Made by a program: the position numbers and the translations under genes. Below the pieces are notes generated by a model that saw only the letters and a program-made list of their open reading frames with translations, searched no databases and had not been told where the DNA came from. A stretch of DNA of 64,000 bases from Cyanodermella asteris. Lineage: Eukaryota; Ascomycota; Lecanoromycetes; Ostropales; Stictidaceae. The stretch spans positions 342,633 to 406,632 of the forward strand of contig UYJD01000018.1 of NCBI GenBank assembly GCA_900618795.1, read 5' to 3'. Shown here one piece after another: positions 5,425 through 60,518 of this stretch; position 1 is the stretch's first letter; each line of letters starts with the position of its first letter.

Positions 5425-7989
5425 GTTGGGCAAGCTGTATGATGGAGATTGAGGTGTGTGAAGGAGCAAAACGAAGCTCTCGAAGATTTTCGCGGCCAGG
5501 AAGAAGAATTGCTCAGCGTCGTCGGCCAGCAATGACGACAGGTGGGGAGCAAAGCGCTCAGAGCCCCGCGGCCAACAATTCTCCCTCTCATGATTTGCCG
5601 CAGCTTATTCACCGTTCAGCAGCGTCGGCTAATCACCATCAGCGTCCATCTTCTCTATCCTCAATTCGCTGCTCTTGAGCGAGTCCGTCGAGGCCGCCAT
5701 GCACCTCGTCCGACATCGCCGCCCGGCAGCACCGGCCGTTTACCGCACAATCAGCACCAGCAAAGGATAAATCTGCGGCTGCAACCTGCTCCGTGACACG
5801 TTGTACTCAGCCCGCGGAGGTGCAGAGGTACCTGGTACTTGACATGCCAGAGGCTCGTCGTGGGTGAGGCTTGTGGAGACAGGAGCAAAGATAGCAAGCT
5901 AGCTCTTCGCCGGTTTCTGGGCCGGCCGATATGTACCTCCCAAGATATGCTCGACAAGCGTTCCCAATCTCCCATTGGGACACCCACAACTTATAGCGGC
6001 TAAATTCTGGAAGCATGTTCGCCATCTCGCCAAAGATTTTAGCCCCAGCAACGTGATTTTTGCCCAGCCGCTCCGACAGGGCTGAACCTCTTTTGCCAGG
6101 TACAAGCACGCTTCCGTCTCTCAGCCACCATGGCCTTGTCAGGTCGAACGCTCCATGTCGCACTTGGACTGGAATAGACTGCGCTTCTACAGCTGCTGTC
6201 CACCGACATTTCGAGTGGGTGTGCCGCCAACCGGACACACTTTGACACGTCCGTGGAACAACCATGACACGCGCTCCCAAACGTTCTGGAGGCTGACGAG
6301 ACACGCTGATGCCACCGAGCCTGATTGAGGAGGCCGGCGTCGCGGTTGCCAGAACGCGACATGGTCATCTTGAAGATAACACTGGAAATGGAAATCCAGC
6401 ACACACGAACCACCGAGCCTCCTGCGTCGACAAGCTCAATGTCTTCCGTGGTGTAGGTAAATTTTGACCGTGTCGGTTTCAATTCGAGCACACGTCGCAT
6501 GTTTTCTACTGCATAACCTGGTTTAGCAATCATGTATTTGGCCGCGGGCGATCTATACATAACGTGCTATCAGGCCACGCGAGACGCCTCTGGCCTGACG
6601 GTCGTGGCTGAGCCAAGCTTTTCCATCGTCGCAGCACCCGCCGAAAAGTGTCTCCGAAGAGGCGAATCTCTCAGGCTCGCTTTCACCTGCCTGGCTGCAT
6701 TTCCGCAGGGCTGCCGAGATGGATGGCCGACCTTAGTCATTAGCGGCTTCGAGAGCTTCTGGAATGCGTCAATGACAGGTGAGCTGGCATGCGTTTCATG
6801 CTATGCGCTGCAACACGACCCATACCGTCCAAATGGTGTCAGGGCCGCACCGCGGCTCCAAAAGCAGGTGTCAAACAGTCAGACTGATCTCGCAAGCAGC
6901 CGAAACATTGCATTGCGGCTCTGGAAGTGCTCCCTTCACCAGATGATAGGGGGTTACCACTTGTACGATGTGAAACTTCCATAATCGAGCTTGAAGAATT
7001 GTCATAGGACTTGCCATGTCCAAGGTTGAGAACCGGAATCTTGCCGATCCCAGCACACCGGGTCTGTCGGTATGCTATTGTGGATCATCTACGTGCAGCG
7101 CATACTTTGCATGCTCCGACCTAAGGCCAGTTGAACCCCGGGCATCACACCGCAGATCCCCCGGGGTGGTGGGTAACGACTTTTTTCAATTGGCCTTAAC
7201 CCGAGCTTCACTTTGACCAGTTGTGGGGCTTCCGTGCATTGTCACACGGTGTGCCATTCGTTGTATGACAACAACCACCCTGGGCAAGATAGCGCTCGCC
7301 GAGAGTCGAACATCGCAAATGTTTCGACAAGGGGCTCACTCGGGAGCATGGCTGTTCGAAAGATGCCTCCTAAGCTCCTCATTATCGTGCCTGCGCCGCG
7401 CATCAGACCAAATTACTATCCACCACTGATTGTCGTGTTCGAGAGCCGCAATCAAAGTGACCGTGTGAGTGGGTGAGTGTTGGCTTGAGGTGTGGCTGCT
7501 CACTAGTACCACGCGGCCGAGTCTGACCTCACCTTCCTTCGCCTGCTCCAATGATCGAGTGGTCCGGAGTACGTCTGCTCATTGGTCTTTTTGGTTTCAT
7601 CTGTCTTTGAAGCTTTTGTCTTCCTCGGCCAACGACTGGGTCAAGTCGGATCCTAGCACTTGACTTTATTGCATACGTACAGCGTCGGAGCCCAGGCTCA
7701 GCACTAGTTTGCTTGAAACTTCTTCCGAATTCGAATGTTGGCAGCGGTCCCATCCGTGTGGCTGCAGCGGGAACCCTGAGACCTAGCCTTTTGTCTTCAC
7801 GCTATAAGCCTCAAAGGCTCATAAGGCTGCATCCATCACAACTTCCATCGGATCCACATCTCTACTGTCCAACATATCCACCCGTATATCCTGCTTGACT
7901 AAGCTTATATACATCCTATGAACACCAGTTTCCGACGGCCCGTGACGCACCAAACCCATCTCCGAATTTTATCAATCACAAAACCAACC
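5425..7989. other. Long intergenic region, no gene recognised
   Basis: About 2.6 kb between the divergent transketolase and bZIP genes. The frames seen are short, lie on conflicting strands and match no family. The left end should contain the transketolase promoter and the right end the bZIP promoter. A G/C-rich palindrome-like stretch lies around 7135-7165 (cccgggcat...ccccgggg) with no assignable role. Confidence 0.45.
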
Positions 7990-8885
7990 ATGACTTTTCA
8001 GCCTCATACCCATCAACAACCATCGTACTATACAGCGAATGGAATGATTTACGAGGACGTGACAATGTCACCTGCTATCTCGACGCCCGGTATACGTGCA
8101 CAACACGTCAGCCAGCGAAGCGTGAGGGTTCAGCAGGGTCAGAAATACGATTTTGTTACCTCGCAAGCTCCAATGCATCACCCAAGCGCCACTCCATATG
8201 CGGCCAGCTCCCACTACGCACCAGCTACACCAGCCAATTCTCTCGACATGAGTCCTGTCGAGCATGTACAGGTTGAATATACGGATATTTCTGCTCCATA
8301 TCCCGAAGATCTCAACTACAGGCCTCGCAAACAAGATGGAAGTCGACAGCCTAGCACAAGCATGCACATGGTGAGTAGGTCCGATTTTCAACATGCCGTG
8401 TATGGCGACCCGATCAACATATCCTTCCCGATATGTGCCTTCTCGTGTTCCAGGCCACCTCAGCTTTCCGATATCTTGGCTGTACACTCGGCTGACTCCG
8501 TGCTTAGCGGCGAAGAGCACAGAACCGGGCCTCGCAACGAGCCTTCCGCGAACGGAAAGAAAAGTATACACAGGACCTCCAGCGCCGCCTCCTTGAAGTC
8601 GAGCAGCAATACGAGGAACTCAAGCAAAGCTACGACGTTGTCCACAAAGAGAAGTGCCAACTGGAAGCCGCGAGTCGTCGTTGCTCGTGCGGTGGCAGCA
8701 TCGTTGCAAGTCCCGGAAGCGTGGGGGGTTTTAGCCAAGCCTCTGATTGTGGCGACTTACCAGGCGAGCGAAGCAGCGCTGGCGGCGAACATTACAGGAG
8801 AGAGGCGGTGAGCATGGACTTCGACCTAGGCGAAGATCCAGATGGAGTATACGAGGTTGTGGACTGGGGCCTGGCGGGCCAATGA
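7990..8885 (+). CDS. AP-1-like bZIP transcription factor
   Basis: Two exons (7990-8370 and 8508-8885) with a 137-nt intron that has a GTGAGT donor and a CTGAC branch site near a TTAG acceptor. The product is 252 residues. The splice brings SMHM directly onto a basic region beginning RRRAQNRASQRAFRERK (residues ~128-144), the NRxxQRAFRxR pattern of the Yap1/Pap1 group. It is followed by a heptad-spaced zipper rich in Leu, Val and Tyr. The N-terminal half is Tyr/Pro/Ser-rich and probably disordered. Cys residues after the zipper (CSCGG, SDCGD) recall the redox-sensing Cys of Yap-type factors, but they are too few to claim redox control. The start is the ATG at 7990 in a CAACCATGA context; an upstream in-frame ATG at 7918 is possible. 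Confidence 0.88.
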
Positions 8886-11305
8886 TGATGTGGAGAAGTA
8901 AAGTTATGAGGCGCACCGCTCTGCGGCTGGAACTCTGGTCACCCACAAAGCGATCTTCGCAAGAGGATGGAAGGCAAGGGTTTTGAGGCTTCAATATTCG
9001 GCTGCCACCGCATATGGTCTGCGTTGCACTGGCTAGATCAGACGATGCCGGGTACGGGCACGTTATGCGGAGACCAGTTTACATTGTTGTTCAATTCGGT
9101 AACTGCCAACCTGGTCTTGACCCTGCATTTGTTTGGCATTCTAGACCGGGTGTCGTGTCTGAGGCGCTGGCCTGTCATGGCGAATACCATTCGAGCGCAG
9201 TATTTGCTGAGTACATAAAGACGGGGAATATTGAACTGTCTGGCAGAAGCGACGAATCGCGGCATCGACGATGCATATACAAGCATGGAACAGGGATGGG
9301 TTATAGTACGAGGTCCAAGCGCTGGCACACTTGGTCTCCCGTCAGGATGTTACAGAGCCGAGATGTTTCAACAGCGGAACGGATGAGCTACATCCCCACT
9401 GGCTGAATTTATCATCACGATGGTAATTTCTCTATAATCTGTGAGGTTTTGCTCTTCGATGTTCCCACAACGAGGTCTTCTGCGCGTTGAGGGCGTGCTG
9501 CTACGCAAATACATGTCCTGCCGAGCAATATGGGACACGCAGCGCAAGTCAATTCCGTGCCTCTTTCATCGACGAGTGGTACGAGTGATGCCATGCTTGT
9601 CTACCACGACCGAGAAGTGGCAGTCCAGATGCTAGGCTGCAGGCACAGAAGCATCGTTGAAATAATGACCGGCGGACGCAAGTCTGTAATGGTCGATTTC
9701 CTTGACGAGTCTACTGTACTAGCTACAGTCACAACCCACGCTCACCCAGCAAAAGCAGGCCCAACAGGGATAGTGCATCGAGCTTAAAATTCAAGCTGAC
9801 AGGAGCGGGACTGCAACCAGCCTGTGGTTCGTCCGATAAGGGACACCCTTTCAACCAGCCGAGAAAAGCCGCTGGCTTCTAGCAATCAAGGTAGCACAAA
9901 GTCTAGTTCATGCCCCGGGCCCGGCTTGGAGCCACACCACCAGGACAACCGGCTTGGAAGACAATCAGGGCTGAGGACAAGCGCCAAGGTCGCCGATAAC
10001 GATGGATACTGGAGAACATACCAAGCAGTCCACACGATTTACACCCCCCATACCTTGACAGACGGCTCGAGATTGTCGTCTTAGTGCTTACAGGCGGATT
10101 CTCGATGCTCCACTTGAACGGGGCATCGTCGATATACTAGAAGCCCTGGCGCAAGTTTAGTCAAAAGCCCAATCCACCAGAAGACCCTTCGTAAGCTCAT
10201 ACAAGCTGCCACCGCCTTTGCGAGTCAGCAAAAGCGACCCCTGCCATTGGAATGCTCGGACGTGGGATACTGGATTTGTGTTGGACCGAGGCGAGATGGG
10301 AGCTCTGCCACCGCACACACATTGCGTGACGATGGCTCACAAGCTCGGCCTATCCAGACGTTCGCGTCAAAGCCTAGCTTGTCTATGACACGAGGATGAC
10401 AATTGCCGAATTGTGCGCAGGTCTTGCGGCCCGAGGGATGAACTAGCATGCAGTGTTGGCACCGTGCTTTGCTTGACGCACGCTCGTATCATTATGAGTA
10501 CTCGCAAGCGAGAAGTTCATTCTATTGGTTCTCTTCATTCGCCAGCAACCACATATCGAGATGCGCTCACACCGGCCTTGCGACTCAATTGAGGGGCAAC
10601 ACGGCAATAACGAACGATTAATGAGCATATCTTCCAAGAAGTTCGTGCCGCAGCCGAGCTTTCATCATCTGAACCAGATTGTCGGAACGAGGCCGATGAT
10701 CTCCCGCAAATGTTGCATGCGTGTCTCTAAAGTCCCGAAATACTGTCGGCGAATCGAGCGGTTATTTCAATCGAACTGTTGACAAGGACTGTCTCGTGGT
10801 GACAAGAACCAAGTAAATTGGATCGACCTCGACCGAGTTCCATTCCACGCACCGCCAGCTTTTTTCATTTTTGTCACAGACCGTGGCACGCCAGTGGTAG
10901 GCCCAAGAATCGAATGCCCGGGTTACCTGATTTTTCTATCGCGCCGTGAGCGTTGGAGATCTCCAAATTCTGCACCCAGCGGTCGGAACAAGCCAAACCG
11001 GATCCTAGCGGGTCGTCACCTCCGCTGCGGAGCTCCCTCTTACAGTAGCGTGGCAGTGGCACAGTCATGGGACGTAAGTACTAACCTCCTCAAATCTAGT
11101 TTGCTGACATGCTCGTCGGCCGCGACCTGCGCGCCGTCCAATCGCAACCTAATTTCCAGAACAGGTAAAAACGTGGCCGCACCACCGACATCTCGGCCCA
11201 ACTTCAACTTCGATGCCCACTGGTAGCAGCTGCGGTGGGCAACATCAAGGTTGCGATCTTACACTTTGACGTGTCAACTCCTTAGGAGTGATGACTGCTG
11301 CAGGT

Positions 11306-15555: not shown

Positions 15556-15675
15556 TGGAAGTCGGCGGTGTGATGGGGTAGAGGATGAGGTCGTTCGCAG
15601 GCGATTGGGTTGCGTGGCTATCGAGTAATCATCTGGCTTGTGAGTCAAGTATTTCGTCTGGTACTCGGTCAAATA

Positions 15676-15795
15676 TCCATTCGAGTGTTCGATCAACTGT
15701 CCATCAAAATGTCTATTCAACTTTCCATTCGAGTCTTCATTCAAGTGACCATTCAAATGTCCAATTAACTATCTGATCGGGTATCTGGCTAATCG
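15676..15795. repeat. 12-bp minisatellite, about ten degenerate units
   Basis: Consecutive 12-nt units resembling tccattcaagtg occupy 15676-15795. Examples are tccattcgagtg, tctattcaactt, ttcattcaagtg and accattcaaatg, with the last units more diverged. The repeat lies in the 3' flank of the preceding gene. Because the unit is a multiple of three, repetitive peptides appear in several frames, but none belongs to a supported gene. Confidence 0.8.
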
Positions 15796-28449: not shown

Positions 28450-28997
28450 GTCATTGCTGGGCGTATTGCACATTGCTTTTCTCTGAAGCTCATTTTCTCC
28501 ATCGCAAGCAAGTAACTTGCATTCACTTTTTCACTTTTGGACGAAGCTGTAGATTGAATGAGTTACTCAAAACCTCGAGTTCAGGAGGGGAAATGATTGG
28601 AGCTTTTGGATCGGCGCGGACATCTCAGTCCAGGTTCTGACTTTCAGACACGAGTCACTCGTTATCGTAACGTGTTGGAGATGTGAATCTGTGGCGATGT
28701 GTATCATTACAAGAATGAAATGAAGAAATGAACTCAAGATGAAGTCTGGAATGCAATTTGCTGTGAACTGTGGCGATGTACTTAGTTTGGATTATGTTTG
28801 CTGCCTCCGATCTTCCCTGCCGCAACAACATGCTGGCCCGACAGCGTTTCGAAATTTCGAATTACTTCTTGCATCGGTATTATCGACGCACCAGTAGACC
28901 TTTTCAAAGCCCGCGAGTATCGTTAGCAGCCTGCTGCAGCTTTCCAAGCCTCACATTCTCCCCATAACATTCAGCCTTCAACGCCGCCCTCGGCTCC
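28450..28997. other. 3' flank, nothing recognised
   Basis: T-rich 3' untranslated-type sequence follows the stop at 28449. No gene or structured element was recognised. Confidence 0.5.
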
Positions 28998-29850
28998 TCA
29001 AGCTCCGTATACACATTCCCCCATCACCAGTATCGCCCTCCCATTCCACCTCCCCGCCTCAGTCCCCGGCCCATCCAGCCCACACTCCTCCACCCTCCGT
29101 TCCTGCCGCGCCGTTGCCGCACACACCATCGCCCTCGCGACCGTCTCCGCTTCACAAACCGGCGTCTCCGCATCCCTGAACTTGACCCTCAACCCCTCCC
29201 CCATCATCAGCGGCGTCGCCGTCCAACCCGGACGGACATAATTGATACCCATATCATCCCGCGGGAGGACAGTCCGCTGCGAAAGCATGAAAACTCAGCA
29301 GTCCAGCCTTCATGGCCTGCGTAGACGGGCGGTTTCCATTCGGGTGAATATCTGATTGGAAATGGAGGTCAGCACGATGCTGCCGCCCCGTCCTCGCCGG
29401 CGCATCCGTGGCTGCGGCGAGTTTGCATAAGGACAGCGCGGCCCGCAGGTTTGATTTGGATGACGAACTGGTGGGGTGAGGGTTCGAGGAGGGTGGACCC
29501 CGTCGGGGGACCAGGTGTCGGTGTTCAAATCGGTTCCGCCGCTGATGCCGGCGTTGGCGATGGCGATGTTGACACCCCCCCGCGTGGTTGAAGGCGGCGT
29601 TTAGGTCAGATCAGGAGGTTGTGTCGCATTTTGTGAAACTGGCGCTGGCGGAGAGGGGGGACAAGGGGGTTTGGAGGTCGAGGATGTGCACTGTGGCACT
29701 TTGGAAGAAAGGAGGTGGAATGTTGAGAGGCCGATTCCGGATGAGCCGTTTTGAGGGATGTAAGCGTTTGGGATCTTGATCTATGTGGATTTGATCGAGC
29801 AGGTTGGGGCATTAGACTGGAAGGGAAAGGCTGGAAGATGTATTTCAAGG
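28998..29850 (-). pseudogene. Decayed short-chain dehydrogenase/reductase (SDR)
   Basis: SDR landmarks appear in order on the minus strand but in different frames. A cofactor-binding NGSSGIGLS motif (~29750) is followed by VHILDL and by a stop-interrupted DLNAAFNHAG. Then come VNIAIANAGISGGTDLN (~29570), an out-of-frame LRAALSLCKLA, GGSIVLTSISNQIF (~29370), QAMKAGLLSF, INYVRPGWTATPL (~29230) and a terminal GRAILVMGE. At least three frame changes and one or two stops separate them, and the usual catalytic YxxxK block is damaged. A C-terminal frame (28998-29288) remains open. The multiple indels argue for a true pseudogene rather than one sequencing error. This SDR type is common in fungal secondary metabolism. 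Confidence 0.75.
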
Positions 29851-53404: not shown

Positions 53405-54556
53405 TCAGTCTCCCTTCAAACTGGCATACTGCACCTCCTCTTGCCCAGGTGGCGGCGCCGCGACGAGCAGATTGGCCTGTGATGGGTTGCCGCCTTGTTC
53501 TGTTCCGGTCGCGGAAGCACCACCTTCGACTGATTTCATGGCCTTATGCATCTCCCGGCCTTGTCTTGCGAGCTTCATCCGTTCGTCATTATCCATGCTG
53601 TCCAGCTGTCGCGGCTTGCCCCAGCCAACTCGCAATGGACATCCCTTTACGACGGCGCGGCCCTGGCACGCAGCAGCAGCTTTCTCCGCACTCTGCCTGT
53701 CAGCATAGTTGATGAAAGCACAGTGCGCTCTGTGACTGCAGACCAGACTGCGCAAAGCACCAAATGGGGCGAAGAACTTTCTGATTTCGTGTTCGGGCAG
53801 ATCGTCTTCGACGCCGGTGATGAAGAGTGAGGTGATGTTCGGATCTGACGGAGGTGCAATGTCAGCTGCTGTGGGAGCGGCAGCCGGGTTTGCTCGCCCT
53901 GCACGTCCGCTAGGTCTTCCTGGCCCAGAGCCTGCTGGTTTGTCGTACGGGCCCGGTCGCGCTGCAACTCGAGTATCTGAAGTTCGAACCGGTCCAGGCC
54001 CTGCTATGATACGTTTCGGGCCCTCTTCGCTGTCGCCAGTCTTTTCCTTCTCTTCGTCTGCCTCTGCTTCGAGCCTTCGCTGCTTTTTGTAGTATGGTTC
54101 AGAGTTTGCAAGCCTCCTCAGCAATTCGCGTGCCTTCTCGTCGGTTTTACCATACGCCTCTTCTATGGCGCCTCTGCCCTGTTCGATTTCCTTCTCGTGC
54201 TCCTGTGCATAGTATTCTCTGTTGATATCACTTCTTGGCCCTGGGGCGACCATCTTCAAGGCAGCATCTCTGACGGCAAGGGGCAAACCAAATGACAAAT
54301 CAAGCATGCAGCATTGGCAGCAGTTTTTGAGACGCGCGCAGGTCAGACAGATGCTTGTAGCCTTCTGCCGCGATGTGCGGTCTGCTTTCCACTTGAACAA
54401 TGTGAACGGGCGTGTACATAACTTGCACTCTGAGCCGTAGTCCTCTTTTAGCATCTGCACGTAGGGATTATCGGGCAGGCAGTTTTCGCAGACGGAGGGG
54501 AAGTCGGTAGTTTCCCAGCCGGATCTGTTGAGATCCTGCTTGATCTGAGGTGGCAT
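53405..54556 (-). CDS. SLT11: Pre-mRNA-splicing factor Slt11/Ecm2 (RBM22-like)
   Basis: NTC-related spliceosome component that stabilises U2/U6 and the catalytic core. Intronless, 383 residues, ATG at 54556. The N-terminal ~100 residues carry the Cys-rich zinc domain (CENCLPDNPYVQM, CKLCTRPFTLFKW, CLTCARLKNCCQCCMLDL). A helical EYYAQEHEKEIEQG region and a Gly/Pro/Arg linker follow. An RRM lies at ~245-320: SLFITGVEDDL as RNP2 and the degenerate AHCAFINYADRQSAEKAA as RNP1, then LRVGWGKPRQLD. Domain order and length match the fungal family. A copy of its start/promoter region recurs at 58942-59006. Confidence 0.96.
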   Translation of the reverse strand: MPPQIKQDLNRSGWETTDFPSVCENCLPDNPYVQMLKEDYGSECKLCTRPFTLFKWKADRTSRQKATSICLTCARLKNCCQCCMLDLSFGLPLAVRDAALKMVAPGPRSDINREYYAQEHEKEIEQGRGAIEEAYGKTDEKARELLRRLANSEPYYKKQRRLEAEADEEKEKTGDSEEGPKRIIAGPGPVRTSDTRVAARPGPYDKPAGSGPGRPSGRAGRANPAAAPTAADIAPPSDPNITSLFITGVEDDLPEHEIRKFFAPFGALRSLVCSHRAHCAFINYADRQSAEKAAAACQGRAVVKGCPLRVGWGKPRQLDSMDNDERMKLARQGREMHKAMKSVEGGASATGTEQGGNPSQANLLVAAPPPGQEEVQYASLKGD

Positions 54557-54613
54557 GATCGCGGTCAGCGAGTGTTATGATACCGCGGTAGGACAGGCCT
54601 CGTGGTGGAGTCG
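54549..54613 (+). repeat. Direct repeat copy A (slt11 start/promoter)
   Basis: Begins aggtggcatgatcgcggtca (including the slt11 start codon, CAT at 54554-54556) and continues to ggtggagtcg. It aligns with 58942-59006 in the same orientation at about 80% over 60 bp by hand count (11 mismatches, one gap), starting with 16 identical bases catgatcgcggtcagc. Confidence 0.75.
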
Positions 54614-54851: not shown

Positions 54852-55885
54852 TTATCTTGGAGGGTGGTCTAAAACAACGTCTACTGGAAGCGGCTGCAAG
54901 CTCGCTTCAGAGAGCCCACGGATCTGTCGAGAACGTCCCCAAGCAGCAATGTCGTCAAAATTTCGACACTTGTGCACATTGCTGAAATCCGGATATGGGC
55001 TGGTTCGATTCTCGACCCACCGGTAAGTGATAATACCGGTATCTGCATGGCAGATCAAATTCTGTCGAAGCATTTCAACGCAATGGTCTGCATCTCAGTC
55101 AGATCGATATACAACAAGGCCAAGCCACATGGACAAAACGCAGAGGATACGACGTACCGAAATGCGCCCGCAATGTGGGCTCAGAATCCGCAAATTCTGG
55201 CGACTTGTCGTGGTAATGCTCTCTGTTCCAGGCGGATGATTTCCGAATGAAGTTCTTTATTCCTGGTCAGGAGGCGAAGAGGACACAGGACACTGAAAAC
55301 TTACCAAGCAGTGGATCTGGTGAAAGACCTCCAGGTTTGCCAGATAGCCCCCGCCGTAATCCTCGGACAGACGAGCAGCATCTTTGTCTAGGTCGGCGTC
55401 GATCAATTCTTCCTCGGATATCGACATCATGCCGACTATATTTCTCAGTCAGAATCGATCCGAAAATAAAACGGAGGGACTTACCGTGCTCGAGATGCTC
55501 CCAAGCCTCGTCTAAGCTTGGAGTTATTTCTCCGCGGTAGGGAGAGGGATGGTGCAATGATCCATTGAAACGAGCGTCATGATATGAGATATCCACGAAC
55601 GCATCAGCGGGTGCTGAAATAAATGTTATTCCGTGGAACAAAAACGGTTTCAGTAGGACAGAACAACTCACATTTCGTGCTGTGAGACTGCCAGCACTTC
55701 TGAGTGGTATGTGTATCACCAAAGCCGCGACCCAGCAGGAATCCTAACACAGCTGCACCGATCACCACCACAGCCATTGACCCCATCCTACAGAAGCTAC
55801 TCGAATATGAGGCATGATCGCGGTATCGGCTGGGGACTTCTTCATTGCGAGGGACCTTCTCATAGAAATATGCACTGTATTTCAT
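54852..55885 (-). CDS. UstYa-like (DUF3328) oxidative cyclase-type protein 1
   Basis: UstYa-family proteins modify ribosomal peptides (ustiloxin/dikaritin type) in the secretory pathway, forming side-chain ether links or other oxidations. Five exons: 55672-55885, 55485-55613, 55305-55435, 55158-55254 and 54852-55087. Introns are 58, 49, 50 and 70 nt, and all junctions keep frame. The product is 268 residues. One membrane segment lies at residues ~37-51 (MAVVVIGAAVLGFLL), preceded by a cytosolic N-terminus. Both family HxxHC motifs are present: HQIHC in LEVFHQIHCL and HFDHC before VEMLRQNLICHADT. The C-terminal HKCRNFDDIAAWGRSRQ block also fits. Intron 3 uses an AAAG acceptor, the only one keeping the HCL-N-xx-R pattern. 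Divergent to the second UstYa-like gene. Confidence 0.9.
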
Positions 55886-56254
55886 GGTCTTTACTCACAA
55901 CGAACAGTAGATGAAAGAGGAATGGTAAACCTCGAGAACATGAGCGAAGATGCAGTGGGATCCCTTGAGCTGCGCTCCGCCTCGTTGAATTAGTGCGTGT
56001 GCGTATGAAATGTTATATAAACACCTTCGCCGCCTATAGCGCATGAAGGCTGACAGACCGTTGGGGGCTTTCACATCACGAGATGACCTAGAATAATGTT
56101 AAGCGAGACGGTATCCACTGGCGAGGACCCTCGTTAGTCGTATCTCACGCCGCCCCTGGGGTTTGTCGCCATCGGAACTAAATTGAGCACTTCGCGGACC
56201 ATTTGTATACTTTCACGGTTGGCCAGTTCTTTTTTCCTATCAGTCACCGCGGAC
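55886..56254. promoter_or_regulatory. Divergent promoter of the two UstYa-like genes
   Basis: 369 bp between the two ATGs. It contains a symmetric TATATAA at 56014-56020, an 11-mer cgcctatagcg at 56031-56041 and gttgggggctttcac at 56060-56074. The 11-mer (as its exact reverse complement) and a close match to the G-rich motif recur upstream of the precursor gene at 57488-57518. Function is inferred only from recurrence and position. Confidence 0.55.
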
Positions 56255-57329
56255 ATGTCTATTGAGAGTGATACAGATTGCTCTCAAACCAGCACCTTGC
56301 TGGAGAAGGGCTTACCGAGAGATGTACCAACCCGAGATGGCGACGCTTCCTGGCTACCGTTCTTCTTCAAGCTGTCAATAGCAGCGAATGTTTCTACCGT
56401 CATGTTCATTTTGATCACCTTAATTACCAGACAGCAAGCGGGCCAGCACGATCTCAGCTACTGTGAGTGTTTTCTTTGGCTTGAAGGGGCCTATGCTAAA
56501 TCCAGAATCAGCGCCGATGAGCGGCAGTGTTGGGTATGAGTCGAGGGCGTTCAACAACACATTCCCGGCTACTTTCCCCTCAGTCTACTTCGGCAAGCCC
56601 TCGCCGGATATTGACAAGGCTTGGGACTCGCTGCTGCAATGTATGCTCCTCCTGGCCGCGCATATCACAGCCCGCTGACCGATCAGATAATAACATGTGG
56701 TTCACGGAAAGCGAGATTCGAAATTTCTTTGTGCCTGAGGAGAGATTGCTTGGGCCTGTCGAGCTGCACAACGGCACATATTTCGGATCAGTTTTCATGT
56801 ACCACCATGCTCACTGTATTGTGAGTGCCGAAGTCATCCACCTCGCAGACACGATGCTGACTGAAAGCGATCAGAAACGGATTTACCGCAGTCTCTTTCC
56901 CGACCACTACTATCCCAACCTCACAAGCTTAGAACAGGAAACCTTGGAGAAGCACAATCGTAAGTACAAAGTATCAAGGGTCTAGGCAGGTCCCCACTCA
57001 TCAAACTCCAGTTCATTGTCTCGATTTCATACTCCAGGGGCTTCTGTGCCAAGGGGACACAACGCCCTTCGTCTACGAATGGCATCCGTCCAATCGCAAG
57101 CCGACTTTCAATCCTCGTACGAACCACACTTGCGCGAAGGTCGACGACGTGTTATCCTGGGCCGAACGAAGATCATTCGCTCCTCGGCTCTCGGGCCTGA
57201 TGCACCCCGCCCTTGGTAGGTGTTGTCGTTCCGACGTTGAAAGTATCCCCACTAACTGGTGGCGCAACAGGTGACCCTTATGCAAGCGAAGCTGGAGTAG
57301 ACCTTGGTGCCGCCGACGTGCATGACTGA
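56255..57329 (+). CDS. UstYa-like (DUF3328) oxidative cyclase-type protein 2
   Basis: Six exons: 56255-56462, 56512-56640, 56687-56820, 56875-56959, 57012-57215 and 57271-57329. Introns are 49, 46, 54, 52 and 55 nt, and frame is kept throughout. The product is 272 residues. A single hydrophobic span lies at ~36-58 (WLPFFFKLSIAANVSTVMFI), typical of the family. The first HxxHC is HHAHC, followed across the intron by KRIYRSLFPDHYYPN. The second is HNLHC, followed by LDFILQGLLCQGDTTPFVYEW. In family members this second block reads HCxxxLRQxxMCxxD, so the canonical Arg-Gln is shifted here to Leu-Gln. Presence of two different UstYa-like proteins is usual in such clusters. The first ATG in frame is at 56255. 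Confidence 0.9.
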
Positions 57330-58152
57330 CTTGGGGGCCAAAATGTGGAACTATCGTAGATATGCCAGAATAGAAGGGACTGCTCTCAACCTGACCTTTT
57401 CGGAAGGTGGAGTCTGTCGTTGCAGGAGCCTTGGCCCGAATAAGGTTGCGATTTTAGATGTTAGTGCGATTATGTAGTCCCTGCGAACGCTATAGGCGGA
57501 GACGGTTGGGGACTTCACGTGACTAGATCCTGCACTTCGAATCGATTTTGCAACCCACACTCATATCCTTGCTCTACTCATCGATCAAAATGTGAGCTAC
57601 GCCGTATTTCTCGGAGAGTTGTTTTGTTACCATCTACCTTGTAGCAGTCTCCAAACTCATAGCACAGCAATGTGGTCTTCAGCTGCGCAAAATACGCCAG
57701 GCGGCGATACATCGCATTCCGAGGATAGTGTTGCTCGTATAGCCTAATTGTGGAGTTGCCGTCTTCCAAACTTAAGGTACGTGCTAGCAAACACCGCCTG
57801 TGGCTTCAAAGCTTGTAAGGTTCGGAGTCTACTTCTTATCTTCGATCGCGTGCTTCTGCTCTTTGATCCCGAACTATTCTTTGAGCGATGTAACCTCTTC
57901 ACTCAGCCACGCGACCGCCATGCAACGAATCCAGGATGCTCAAGTTCGTGCCTGCGAACGAGCAAGAACACAATCAAGCGGTCAAAGTCCACTTGCGATG
58001 CACTATGAACTCTCGGCTCGAGAATCCAAGCAAGAATTGATATTGGCACGCCCTCGAAGCAGCCAGCTGCTTCACATAAATAATTGCCTCTGCCTTGCTA
58101 TCTCCATATTGTCACAGACGCGAGCAATCTTCAACGCCAATCTACCGCAACA
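57330..58152. promoter_or_regulatory. Upstream region of the RiPP precursor gene
   Basis: 823 bp. Carries cgctataggcg (57488-57498) and gttggggacttcac (57505-57518), matching elements in the UstYa divergent promoter. A CACGTG palindrome overlaps the end of the second motif (cttcacgtgac). A cataaataat sequence near 58076, about 75 bp before the precursor ATG, is TATA-like. A minus-strand frame at 57578-57790 looks mildly protein-like but has no ATG start and is not called. Confidence 0.45.
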
Positions 58153-58582
58153 ATGCATTCCAAGCTTCTGATCCTCCTCGGCGTTGCCGCTGCCACGCTG
58201 GCGGCTCCTTTGCCTCAGGGTGAGCACAAAGACGCATAGAGCCTGTTGAACAAGAGACTCACATGTTCCAGCCGGCATTGCTGCGAGAGCCGAGAACGAT
58301 GCTGACTACGAGATCACGGCCAAGTTCGAGAGCTACGACCAGAAGCGAGCCGAGAATGACGCTGACTACGAGATCACTGCCAAATTCGAGAACTACGACC
58401 AGAAGCGAGCTGAGAATGATGCTGACTACGAGATTACGGCCAAGTTTGAGAACTACGAAGAGAAGAGAGCCGAAAATGATGCCGACTATTCGATCTCGGC
58501 CAAGTTTGACAGCTACGACCAGAAGAGAGCCGAGAGCGACGCCGACTACGAGATTACGGCCAAGTTTGCGAAGTATGACTAA
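58153..58582 (+). CDS. Candidate RiPP precursor: secreted five-repeat, KR-processed peptide
   Basis: Two exons (58153-58219 and 58272-58582) around a 52-nt phase-1 intron (GTGAGC donor, TTCCAG acceptor). The product is 125 residues. Residues 1-18 are a clear signal peptide (Leu-rich core, LAA cleavage). After a short GIAAR spacer come five tandem units of 20 residues at 29-48, 49-68, 69-88, 89-108 and a 17-residue last unit 109-125. The DNA period is 60 bp. The first four units end in Lys-Arg, the Kex2 site. Each unit starts AE(N/S)DADY and holds Tyr-Glu-Ile-Thr (Tyr-Ser-Ile-Ser in unit 4), then AKF and a second Tyr. The repeated, KR-flanked design next to two UstYa-like genes is that of ustiloxin/dikaritin-type precursors. 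Core boundaries and product are unknown. Confidence 0.85.
58289..58579 (+). repeat. 60-bp tandem repeat inside the precursor gene
   Basis: Units 58289-58348, 58349-58408, 58409-58468, 58469-58528 and a 51-nt partial unit 58529-58579. Units differ mostly at synonymous positions, and amino-acid changes are few. That pattern suggests selection on the peptide. Confidence 0.9.
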
Positions 58583-59322
58583 GCATTCTGCGGTCGTCAA
58601 GTGCAAGCCGACTTCGACATTGAATGAAGAACTCAGAGAGGACCACCAACGTCCATGTGGCCAGTTTTGTTGCTCTCCATACAGCTCAAGTGAGGTCTCG
58701 GATGAAAAAGCATTATGTCTTGAGGCTAGCAGACGCAATCTCCCCAATTGATAGAATGTGCAATGATCCCAGATTTCGAAGTTCAAAGTCCATGTTCCAT
58801 ACTGCACCATTTCATCTTCTTGAGAACAATGCTACCATCTCTTTGCAGGGATGTTGCTCGTGCAATCAAAGTTCTGCATTAGAGGCTAGATCTCGTGCAA
58901 GGCGTCGAGACGTTCTGCCATGCCGGCTGAAGATGATATTAGGTGACATGATCGCGGTCAGCAAATGTTCCGGCATCACGGTAGGACGGATTCGCGGTGG
59001 AGTCGAGTCCTGGAAGCAACGAGCGCAAGCTTTCTGCCACGAACGAAGTACGGGGGCGGAGTTGTCGGAGTTGACGATTCAGGGATCGCAGGTGGCTGCA
59101 GCTCCCCGGCCGCGCGCGCCAATCAGCACTCTTCCATCCTGAGTGGCCGGGCCGGCTCGTCAATAATTTTGTGCCGGCATGGTCTGATAAGTCGAGCTTG
59201 ATCGTCTGTTCCAGCGGTAATCTCCCCTTTATATCTCGCCCTCGTCGTTCAATCGAGAACCACACCAACGCCTGATACTCAATCCTCGATTACTCCCTCC
59301 TGCCCTACTGTCAATTTCAACA
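58583..59322. other. Precursor 3' flank and ERG6 promoter
   Basis: 740 bp. The right part should contain the ERG6 promoter and leader (C/T-rich before 59323). It includes repeat copy B (58942-59006). No gene recognised. Confidence 0.5.
58942..59006 (+). repeat. Direct repeat copy B of the slt11 start/promoter
   Basis: Sequence ggtgacatgatcgcggtcag onward aligns with 54549-54613 at about 80%. Its minus-strand reading would begin Met-Ser-Pro like a mutated slt11 start but soon ends, so it is a truncated copy, not a gene. Weaker similarity continues for some tens of bases to the right. Confidence 0.7.
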
Positions 59323-60518
59323 ATGGCGCCCTCAAAGCTCGAGAACGAAGACCACGCGCGTGATGCCGCCTTCAACAAGGCCATGCACGGCAAATCCGCC
59401 GAGGCCGAGGGTGGCATGAGGGCCATGTTCACAAAAGACAGGACCGCACACAAGGCTGCGGTTGATGAGTACTTCAAGCATTGGGACAACAAGGCCGCCG
59501 AGGTCGAGACAGAGGAGACCAGAGCCGCGCGAAGAGCGGAATACGCTACCCTTACCAGACAGTAAGTTCGATTGCGTCCAGTTGGCGTCCAGTGACGAAG
59601 TTGCCGTATAATGACAAGTAACCCAGCTACTACAACCTCGCGACCGATCTGTACGAAAACGGCTGGGGCCAGTCCTTCCATTTCTGCCGCTTCGGTCACA
59701 GAGAAGCCTTCTACCAGGCAATCGCAAGACACGAGCACTACCTCGCGCACACAATGGGCATCAAGCCGGGCATGAAGGTTCTCGATGTCGGATGCGGTGT
59801 TGGAGGTCCAGCCCGCGAAATCGCGCGCTTTACAGACGCTCACATCACCGGGTTGAACAACAACGACTACCAGATCGAGCGCGCGACAAGGTATGCCGCC
59901 AAGGAGGGCATGGCGAACCAGCTCAACTTTGTCAAGGGCGACTTCATGCAGATGAGCTTCCCGGACAACTCTTTCGACGCCGTGTACGCGATCGAAGCAA
60001 CGGTGCACGCTCCCGAGCTGGTCGGTGTCTACAGCGAGATCTTCAGGGTGTTGAAGCCGGGCGGCGTTTTCGGTGTCTACGAGTGGTTGATGACGGACGA
60101 GTACGACAATGACAACGCCGAGCACCGCAAGATTCGCCTGGGAATTGAGCAGGGTGACGGGATCTCAAACATGGTGAGGGTTTCGGAAGGATGGAAGGCC
60201 GTCAAGGACGCCGGCTTCACCTTGGAACACCACGAAGATCTCGCAGACCGAGCCGACCCCATTCCATGGTACTACCCCCTCGCTGGAGACTTCAGCATGA
60301 TGGGCAGTGTCTGGGACACCCTGACGATTGCCCGCATGCACCCCATCGGCCGCAGCATCGTTCACAAGTTTGTTGGAGCTCTGGAAACACTCAGGATCGC
60401 TCCTCACGGCACGCAGAAGACCGCCGACAGTCTCGCCGAAGCAGCTGACTCCCTTGTCGCCGGCGGCAAGCAGAAGCTTTTCACACCCATGTATTTTATG
60501 GTTGGAAGGAAGCCCTGA
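59323..60518 (+). CDS. ERG6: Sterol 24-C-methyltransferase
   Basis: Transfers a methyl group from SAM to C-24 of zymosterol or lanosterol-type sterols in ergosterol synthesis (ER/lipid droplets). Exons 59323-59561 and 59627-60518 with a 65-nt phase-2 intron. The product is 376 residues, the normal length. The splice restores [26 protein letters not shown], the Erg6 signature region. SAM motif I is VLDVGCGVGGPAREIARF. Further blocks are GLNNNDYQIERA, ATVHAPELVGVYSEIFRVLKPGG, YEWLMTDEYD and the C-terminal sterol-methyltransferase domain with WYYPLAGDFSMM. All expected residues are present. It stands next to the RiPP locus, but as a housekeeping gene it is probably not part of it. Confidence 0.97.

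Follow-up and report, generated by a model that had tools for sequence, protein, structure and literature searches.

A compact three-gene locus in Cyanodermella asteris with the gene-level marks of a dikaritin-type peptide pathway

Two genes of the UstYa family (DUF3328, PF11807) and a gene for a repeat-containing peptide precursor form a compact block in the ascomycete Cyanodermella asteris. The block spans positions 54852-58582 of the DNA analyzed here, a 64,000-nt stretch of assembly GCA_900618795.1 (contig UYJD01000018.1, positions 342,633 to 406,632; hereafter the window). Gene models rebuilt from the DNA yield an uninterrupted protein for each of the three genes, with all three reading frames intact, and the nine introns of the trio are all of the GT-AG type and 46-70 nt long.

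54852..55885, minus strand: UstYa-A gene, exons 54852-55087, 55158-55254, 55305-55435, 55485-55613 and 55672-55885; 268 amino acids; PF11807 match of 188 bits
56255..57329, plus strand: UstYa-B gene, exons 56255-56462, 56512-56640, 56687-56959, 57012-57215 and 57271-57329; 290 amino acids; PF11807 match of 131.6 bits
58153..58582, plus strand: precursor gene, exons 58153-58219 and 58272-58582; 125 amino acids, with the repeat units from 58289 on

The UstYa-A and UstYa-B genes are arranged head to head, and the precursor ATG lies 823 bp beyond the UstYa-B stop codon. A sequence-only reading of this DNA had described a divergent multi-exon pair with paired HxxHC motifs and a two-exon precursor 0.8 kb downstream; the rebuilt models bear this out, with five exons in each UstYa gene.

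The precursor starts with a signal-like leader, MHSKLLILLGVAAATLAAP (read by eye), and continues into five near-identical units of 20 residues (AENDADYEITAKFESYDQKR, AENDADYEITAKFENYDQKR, AENDADYEITAKFENYEEKR, AENDADYSISAKFDSYDQKR and AESDADYEITAKFAKYD, in order), of which units 1-4 end in KR and unit 5 at the stop codon, as had been claimed from the sequence. The array ranks top of the eight rows returned by Tandem Repeats Finder for the window (score 387, period 60, 4.9 copies). Over the first 17 codons and all ten unit pairs, the ratio of nonsynonymous to synonymous change (pN/pS) is 0.15, with mostly synonymous differences that number 8, 18 and 66 at codon positions 1, 2 and 3, respectively; the repeat is therefore constrained as a peptide. 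The corresponding ratios are 2.31 and 1.89 in the other forward frames and 3.85, 0.91 and 0.18 in the antisense frames. Residues A1, E2, D4, A5, D6, Y7, I9, A11, K12, F13 and Y16 are identical in all five units, and a variable residue 8 sits between the fixed Tyr7 and Ile9. With its signal-like leader (by eye) and repeats separated by Kex2 sites, the precursor shows the two traits by which Kex2-processed repeat proteins (KEPs) are recognized.

The sequence-only reading knew of no matching repeat unit, and the searches agree: a protein search for relatives of the precursor (38 word-sharing candidates) gave none at E ≤ 1, and four 8-residue strings of the unit had no match in the literature searched. 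Against Pfam the precursor gave only sub-cut-off matches (best E 0.01), and against NCBIfam, a prokaryote library, no match. Elsewhere in the genome, the best match to the precursor (C18:2979-3278, 21 bits) is a distinct repeat precursor located next to another UstYa gene, and it was rejected as a homologue. The repeat unit is new to the searches made, while the kind of system, dikaritin-type, is already known.

Both UstYa proteins exceed the 25-bit cut-off of PF11807, so that the predicted DUF3328 membership holds: UstYa-A matches over residues 28-243 (E 2.8e-55) and UstYa-B over residues 40-257 (E 5e-38). Each has an N-terminal hydrophobic segment (judged by eye) and a complete double motif, HQIHC and HFDHC in UstYa-A and HHAHC and HNLHC in UstYa-B. 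The closest named relative of UstYa-A is P0001 of Patellaria atrata (48% identity over 86% of the query), an independently annotated protein, itself a prediction, whose sequence matches the UstYa-A exon junctions near the motifs (LNFMRKSS and HFDHC there). For UstYa-B exon 3, three in-frame starts are listed, and AG precedes only that at 56687. When UstYa-A, UstYa-B and 13 database relatives are aligned, the motif residues (four His and two Cys) are invariant in all 15 sequences, and two further Cys are common to UstYa-A and UstYa-B; among 35 aligned relatives, two of the motif His are kept at ≥90%. The two proteins are only 25% identical to each other, and UstYa-B aligns at 22-30% with the UstYa-A relatives (full-length rows). 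The head-to-head arrangement and this low identity fit two different roles or a heterodimer.

A structure model was made for the relative P0001. In it, residues 42-79 form a long N-terminal helix, and the two HxxHC motifs sit on separate, adjacent helices at 161-183 and 194-214 (mean predicted local distance difference test score [pLDDT] 77; predicted template modelling score [pTM] 0.61). A PDB fold search with this model returned four matches at E ≤ 10 and none at 0.001, and PDB sequence searches with UstYa-A and with the 35-sequence profile gave no match. The helix arrangement agrees with the description of CctR, a DUF3328 hydroxylase that is reported to associate with membranes, depend on dioxygen and form a homodimer whose binuclear copper centre lies at the double HxxHC (PMC12435403). 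PMC12186524 cites in vitro activity of the family, including formation of the Tyr-Phe ether of asperipin-2a. Because of the copper chemistry of CctR, the retention of the motif His and Cys and the helix model of P0001, UstYa-A and UstYa-B are probably both active copper oxidases.

Across the genome, PF11807 has 68 exon matches that group into 34 loci, and 22 of these loci were examined for open reading frames (ORFs) encoding repeat peptides, with the rest of the 64-kb window and published rates as controls. In 14 of the 22 stretches such an ORF occurs, at a distance of 294-2233 bp from a UstYa exon match; each has a different unit, and eight of the 14 units contain Tyr. No other flagged ORF in the rest of the window was judged precursor-like. 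The thirteen other loci are L020-L028, L034, L035, L037 and L040, with units such as TNIYPGVKYEGDVEKR (L027) and SQSVDETNNQAGWGKR (L034). A signal-like leader is found in the same frame in eight of the 14 cases (one of them, L020, has a single R in place of the dibasic site) and by splicing in the precursor described here (L039), and the remaining five (L021, L022, L026, L028 and L035) have none in frame; there the leader would sit in a putative upstream exon. The count of 14 excludes, by eye, antisense or out-of-frame readings of the same repeats and low-scoring or non-dibasic repeats (e.g., L033, L036 and L038, and window 28898-29176 and 42528-42764). Nor does it include what may be another array in L023 (7786-8286). 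The mean distance between repeat ORF and UstYa match is 1340 bp, compared with 1900 bp for random placement (p = 0.051), a weak difference given that the stretches are centred on UstYa matches. In published surveys, Ascomycota strains have a mean of 5.25 repeat precursors, 1647 DUF3328-linked repeat precursors are counted in 1024 Ascomycota strains, and, all phyla taken together, the ratio of DUF3328 genes to linked precursors is 1.7 (PMC7329392); nine dikaritin clusters are reported for Venturia inaequalis (PMC9632046). Because 14 of 22 stretches have such pairings, set against these published rates, we conclude that the genome is rich in UstYa/repeat-peptide pairings and that the locus described here is one of many.

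Tyrosinases, cytochrome P450s and S41 peptidases were sought across the genome as well. The genome has eight tyrosinase matches, the closest of which lies 53.6 kb from any UstYa match (C19), and 102 cytochrome P450 matches, some of them a few kb from other UstYa loci. Among five matches to S41 peptidases, two are less than 7 kb away from other UstYa loci (G000:C15:364177-364815 and G000:C12:856141-856317, whose distances to UstYa matches are 1.9 and 6.2 kb, respectively); both sites are in or beside stretches in which no repeat ORF was found and may belong to larger clusters of the same kind. Inside the block itself the genome searches place neither tyrosinase nor P450, and the ten other frames in its intervals have no Pfam match at E ≤ 0.01, in line with the absence of these enzymes noted in the sequence-only reading. 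That Pfam scan of the ten interval frames was also the sole means by which a transporter was looked for, and none was recognized. The proposal that the locus is a minimal cluster stands insofar as the block holds three genes only, with the provisos that enzymes encoded elsewhere may contribute and that at least 14 such pairings in the genome make it less singular than supposed.

Among characterized systems, asperipin-2a of Aspergillus flavus resembles this one in having a very small cluster with a precursor and a UstYa-family cyclase; that cluster is not known to include a tyrosinase. The asperipin-2a cluster has one DUF3328 protein (PMC7329392) and four genes (PMC10512285), whereas the locus here has a divergent UstYa pair. 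Ustiloxin and phomopsin clusters share with it a multicore, Kex2-cut precursor accompanied by DUF3328 proteins, two for ustiloxin and five for phomopsin (PMC7329392) and two here. Their units also contain Tyr, with the N-terminal Tyr linked to an internal Ile (PMC9233826), and here an invariant Tyr and an invariant Ile are two residues apart. Because of that Tyr-Ile link (PMC9233826), our first guess for a linked pair would be Tyr7-Ile9, with Phe13 and Tyr16 as alternatives. The ustiloxin cluster differs in its 15 genes (PMC10512285) against three here. Ustiloxins and phomopsins both differ in their repeat unit and in the matter of tyrosinase, since nowhere in this genome do a tyrosinase match and a UstYa match lie within 50 kb of each other. 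Epichloecyclins and victorin, too, are cyclized through side chains and come from multicore precursors that Kex2 likely processes, but the former have an N-terminal Ile and an internal Tyr and the latter is cyclized via Phe and Leu (PMC9233826). The same gene pairing as here is that of the DUF3328-linked, Kex2-processed repeat proteins of Umemura 2020 (PMC7329392). A clustered gene of the DUF3328/UstYa family has been suggested as the class-defining enzyme of dikaritins (PMC12048977). Of the traits by which dikaritins are recognized, Kex2-separated tandem units and clustered DUF3328 genes (two) are found here; a tyrosinase, which belongs to ustiloxins and phomopsins and is not class-defining, is absent from the vicinity, at the distance given above.

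The promoter regions of the trio share a short element.

55886..56254, no strand assigned: divergent promoter region between UstYa-A and UstYa-B, with CCGCCTATAGCG at 56030-56041 and, 14 nt further, GACCGTTGGGGGC at 56056-56068
57488..57513, plus strand: matching element 5' of the precursor, with CGCTATAGGCGG at 57488-57499 and, 1 nt further, GACGGTTGGGGAC at 57501-57513

In the whole 28.5-Mb genome, the 12-mer CGCTATAGGCGG occurs exactly twice, at 56030-56041 (minus strand) and 57488-57499 (plus strand), one upstream of both UstYa genes and the other, in opposite orientation, upstream of the precursor; simple arithmetic gives about 3.4 expected matches, and the reversed control has four. In both promoters the 12-mer is followed by GACSGTTGGGGRC, which has seven matches in the genome, two of them at this locus (control, 0). 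Six promoter comparisons were made; in the two that pair these regions, one for each strand, the scores are at a level that 2 of 300 simple shuffles attained. The shared element suggests common regulation and co-expression of the three genes.

The trio is also bracketed by a direct repeat, with one gene outside the cluster on either side.

54541..54613, no strand assigned: left copy of the flanking direct repeat, holding the start codon of the STL11-family gene (ATG 54556, minus strand) and sequence upstream of it
58934..59005, no strand assigned: right copy, between the precursor and the sterol methyltransferase gene; the ATG and similar first codons are kept
53405..54556, minus strand: left neighbour, STL11-family gene (Pfam STL11_N and RRM_1), outside the cluster
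59323..60518, plus strand: right neighbour, sterol methyltransferase-like gene (Sterol_MT_C; frame 59622-60518 scanned; two exons by eye), outside the cluster

The two copies align over 73 columns with 79% identity in the same orientation, and a whole-genome search finds the repeat in these two places only (E 9.2e-10 for the second). Because a two-copy repeat that contains the start of the STL11-family gene flanks the trio, the arrangement suggests that the three genes were inserted as one block upstream of that gene, duplicating the region and leaving one copy beside each neighbour. Alternatively, the repeat may stem from a duplication of another kind that was later changed. The insert carries no strong foreign mark in its content of guanine plus cytosine (50.4%, compared with 52.4% and 54.3% on the sides). 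A third partial copy (GGCATGATCGCGGT) occurs at window 55806-55824 within UstYa-A exon 1, perhaps by chance.

The search for flanking repeats covered all 22 UstYa stretches examined, and the other 21 have no two-copy repeat of this kind, although two of them had repeats. In L027, the 75.7% repeat pair was discarded on translation as coding sequence of two related genes; these stretches (7038-7106 and 9840-9908), near UstYa genes, have the pattern CNCGxSIxEA, followed by VAHC in the first, and possibly represent a diverged UstYa relative. In L041, a 170-190-bp element was rejected as a counterpart because it is a dispersed repeat with 31 genome matches, unlike the two-copy repeat here. Its copies (172-344, 7855-8032 and 8624-8791) lie among UstYa exon matches on C17, with direct copies on either side of three such matches and a third copy inverted, and C7 has a copy of this type of element at a distance of 1.2 kb from a UstYa match.

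We interpret the locus as a minimal three-gene cluster of dikaritin type for a ribosomally synthesized and post-translationally modified peptide (RiPP), with a probability of roughly 85%, because a signal-like leader, five constrained units and KR sites are found beside a pair of DUF3328 proteins in each of which the double HxxHC motif is complete. At the level of the genes, the locus has the marks of fungal RiPPs of the dikaritin type, which support this assignment, and a cyclic product is predicted. In the proposed pathway, the precursor would enter the secretory pathway and be cleaved by Kex2 after KR into peptides of about 18-20 residues. UstYa-A and UstYa-B, as membrane-anchored, lumen-facing copper oxidases, would act on the released peptides, either as separate homodimers or as one joint heterodimer, and introduce one or more oxidative cross-links on Tyr at a loss of about 2 Da per ring. 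For unit 2 without its KR, the calculated [M+H]+ is 2135.904 in linear form, 2133.888 with one ring and 2131.873 with two; the corresponding values for the part that starts at Tyr7 are 1520.690, 1518.675 and 1516.659. Co-expression would be achieved through the shared promoter element, and the trio would have arrived as one block 5' of the STL11-family gene.

Several points weigh against this interpretation. The evidence is at the level of sequence, with the leader judged by eye; no peptidase, tyrosinase, methyltransferase or transporter was recognized in the block, and cyclization of ustiloxin and phomopsin is reported to require a tyrosinase (PMC7329392). The low pN/pS extends to the antisense frame that shares the wobble position, so that this ratio alone gives no choice of strand, which was made because of the leader, the start codon and the linkage. 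Tyr-x-Ile appears in 10.6% of shuffled units and is hence a hint only, four of the six local promoter comparisons are unremarkable, and a protein search (423 candidates) found no relatives of UstYa-B at E ≤ 1e-3.

If the cluster were instead the reduced remnant of a larger dikaritin cluster, with peptidase, transporter or tyrosinase lost or located elsewhere, it would work only with enzymes supplied in trans, or no longer. Three genes alone between two housekeeping-type genes, the proximity of S41 peptidase and P450 matches to UstYa loci elsewhere, and a flanking repeat as a sign of past rearrangement would all suit such a history. We nevertheless consider it unlikely, as the three frames are intact, the units constrained and both catalytic motifs complete, and four genes sufficed for asperipin-2a (PMC10512285). 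A step less probable still is that Kex2 processing yields linear secreted peptides (signal, effector or surface), the UstYa pair acting elsewhere or only hydroxylating, halogenating or desaturating without cyclizing. The survey in PMC7329392 lists 6120 of 7878 Kex2-processed repeat proteins without a nearby DUF3328 gene, and DUF3328 proteins are implicated in hydroxylation and halogenation too (PMC12435403). Here, in contrast, the precursor and the UstYa genes are directly linked and comparable pairings are seen in 14 of the 22 UstYa stretches, the 12-mer is common to the UstYa and precursor promoters, and the units contain Tyr, a residue reported for 65.6% of DUF3328-linked units against 38.2% of unlinked ones (PMC7329392).

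Chance proximity of UstYa genes to a mating-pheromone or structural repeat-protein gene is hardly credible. The yeast alpha-factor precursor is also multicore and Kex2-processed (PMC9233826), but pheromone-type precursors almost all lack DUF3328 neighbours, with three exceptions (PMC7329392), whereas two such genes are present here, and 14 loci with different units fit poorly with one pheromone. A bolder form of the dikaritin-type interpretation, which we regard as doubtful although somewhat less so than the remnant, is that of a self-contained cassette. The UstYa pair, probably as a heterodimer, would then suffice without tyrosinase to form a Tyr-Ile (or Tyr-Phe) ring on the Kex2-released peptide; the cassette would have entered a site between two essential genes, duplicating at least 73 bp so that both genes retained a promoter, and would belong to a large cassette family that diversified inside this one genome.

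Should the dikaritin-type interpretation be correct, the roles of two UstYa enzymes would be separable without tyrosinase, peptidase or P450, and the question of a heterodimer would become testable. The duplicated flanks may record how such a block came to lie where it does. The 34 PF11807 loci, with at least 14 repeat-peptide partners, are a rich source of uncharacterized peptides.

In the wider surroundings of the block (37.7-63.1 kb of the window), six of the ten frames scanned match Pfam families, namely SPT2, Bud13, P450 (45688-47289), ribosomal S8e, ribosomal L21 and 3-hydroxyacyl-CoA dehydrogenase. Farther away, window 15669-15773 holds an imperfect tandem repeat with periods of 12, 24 and 48 bp.

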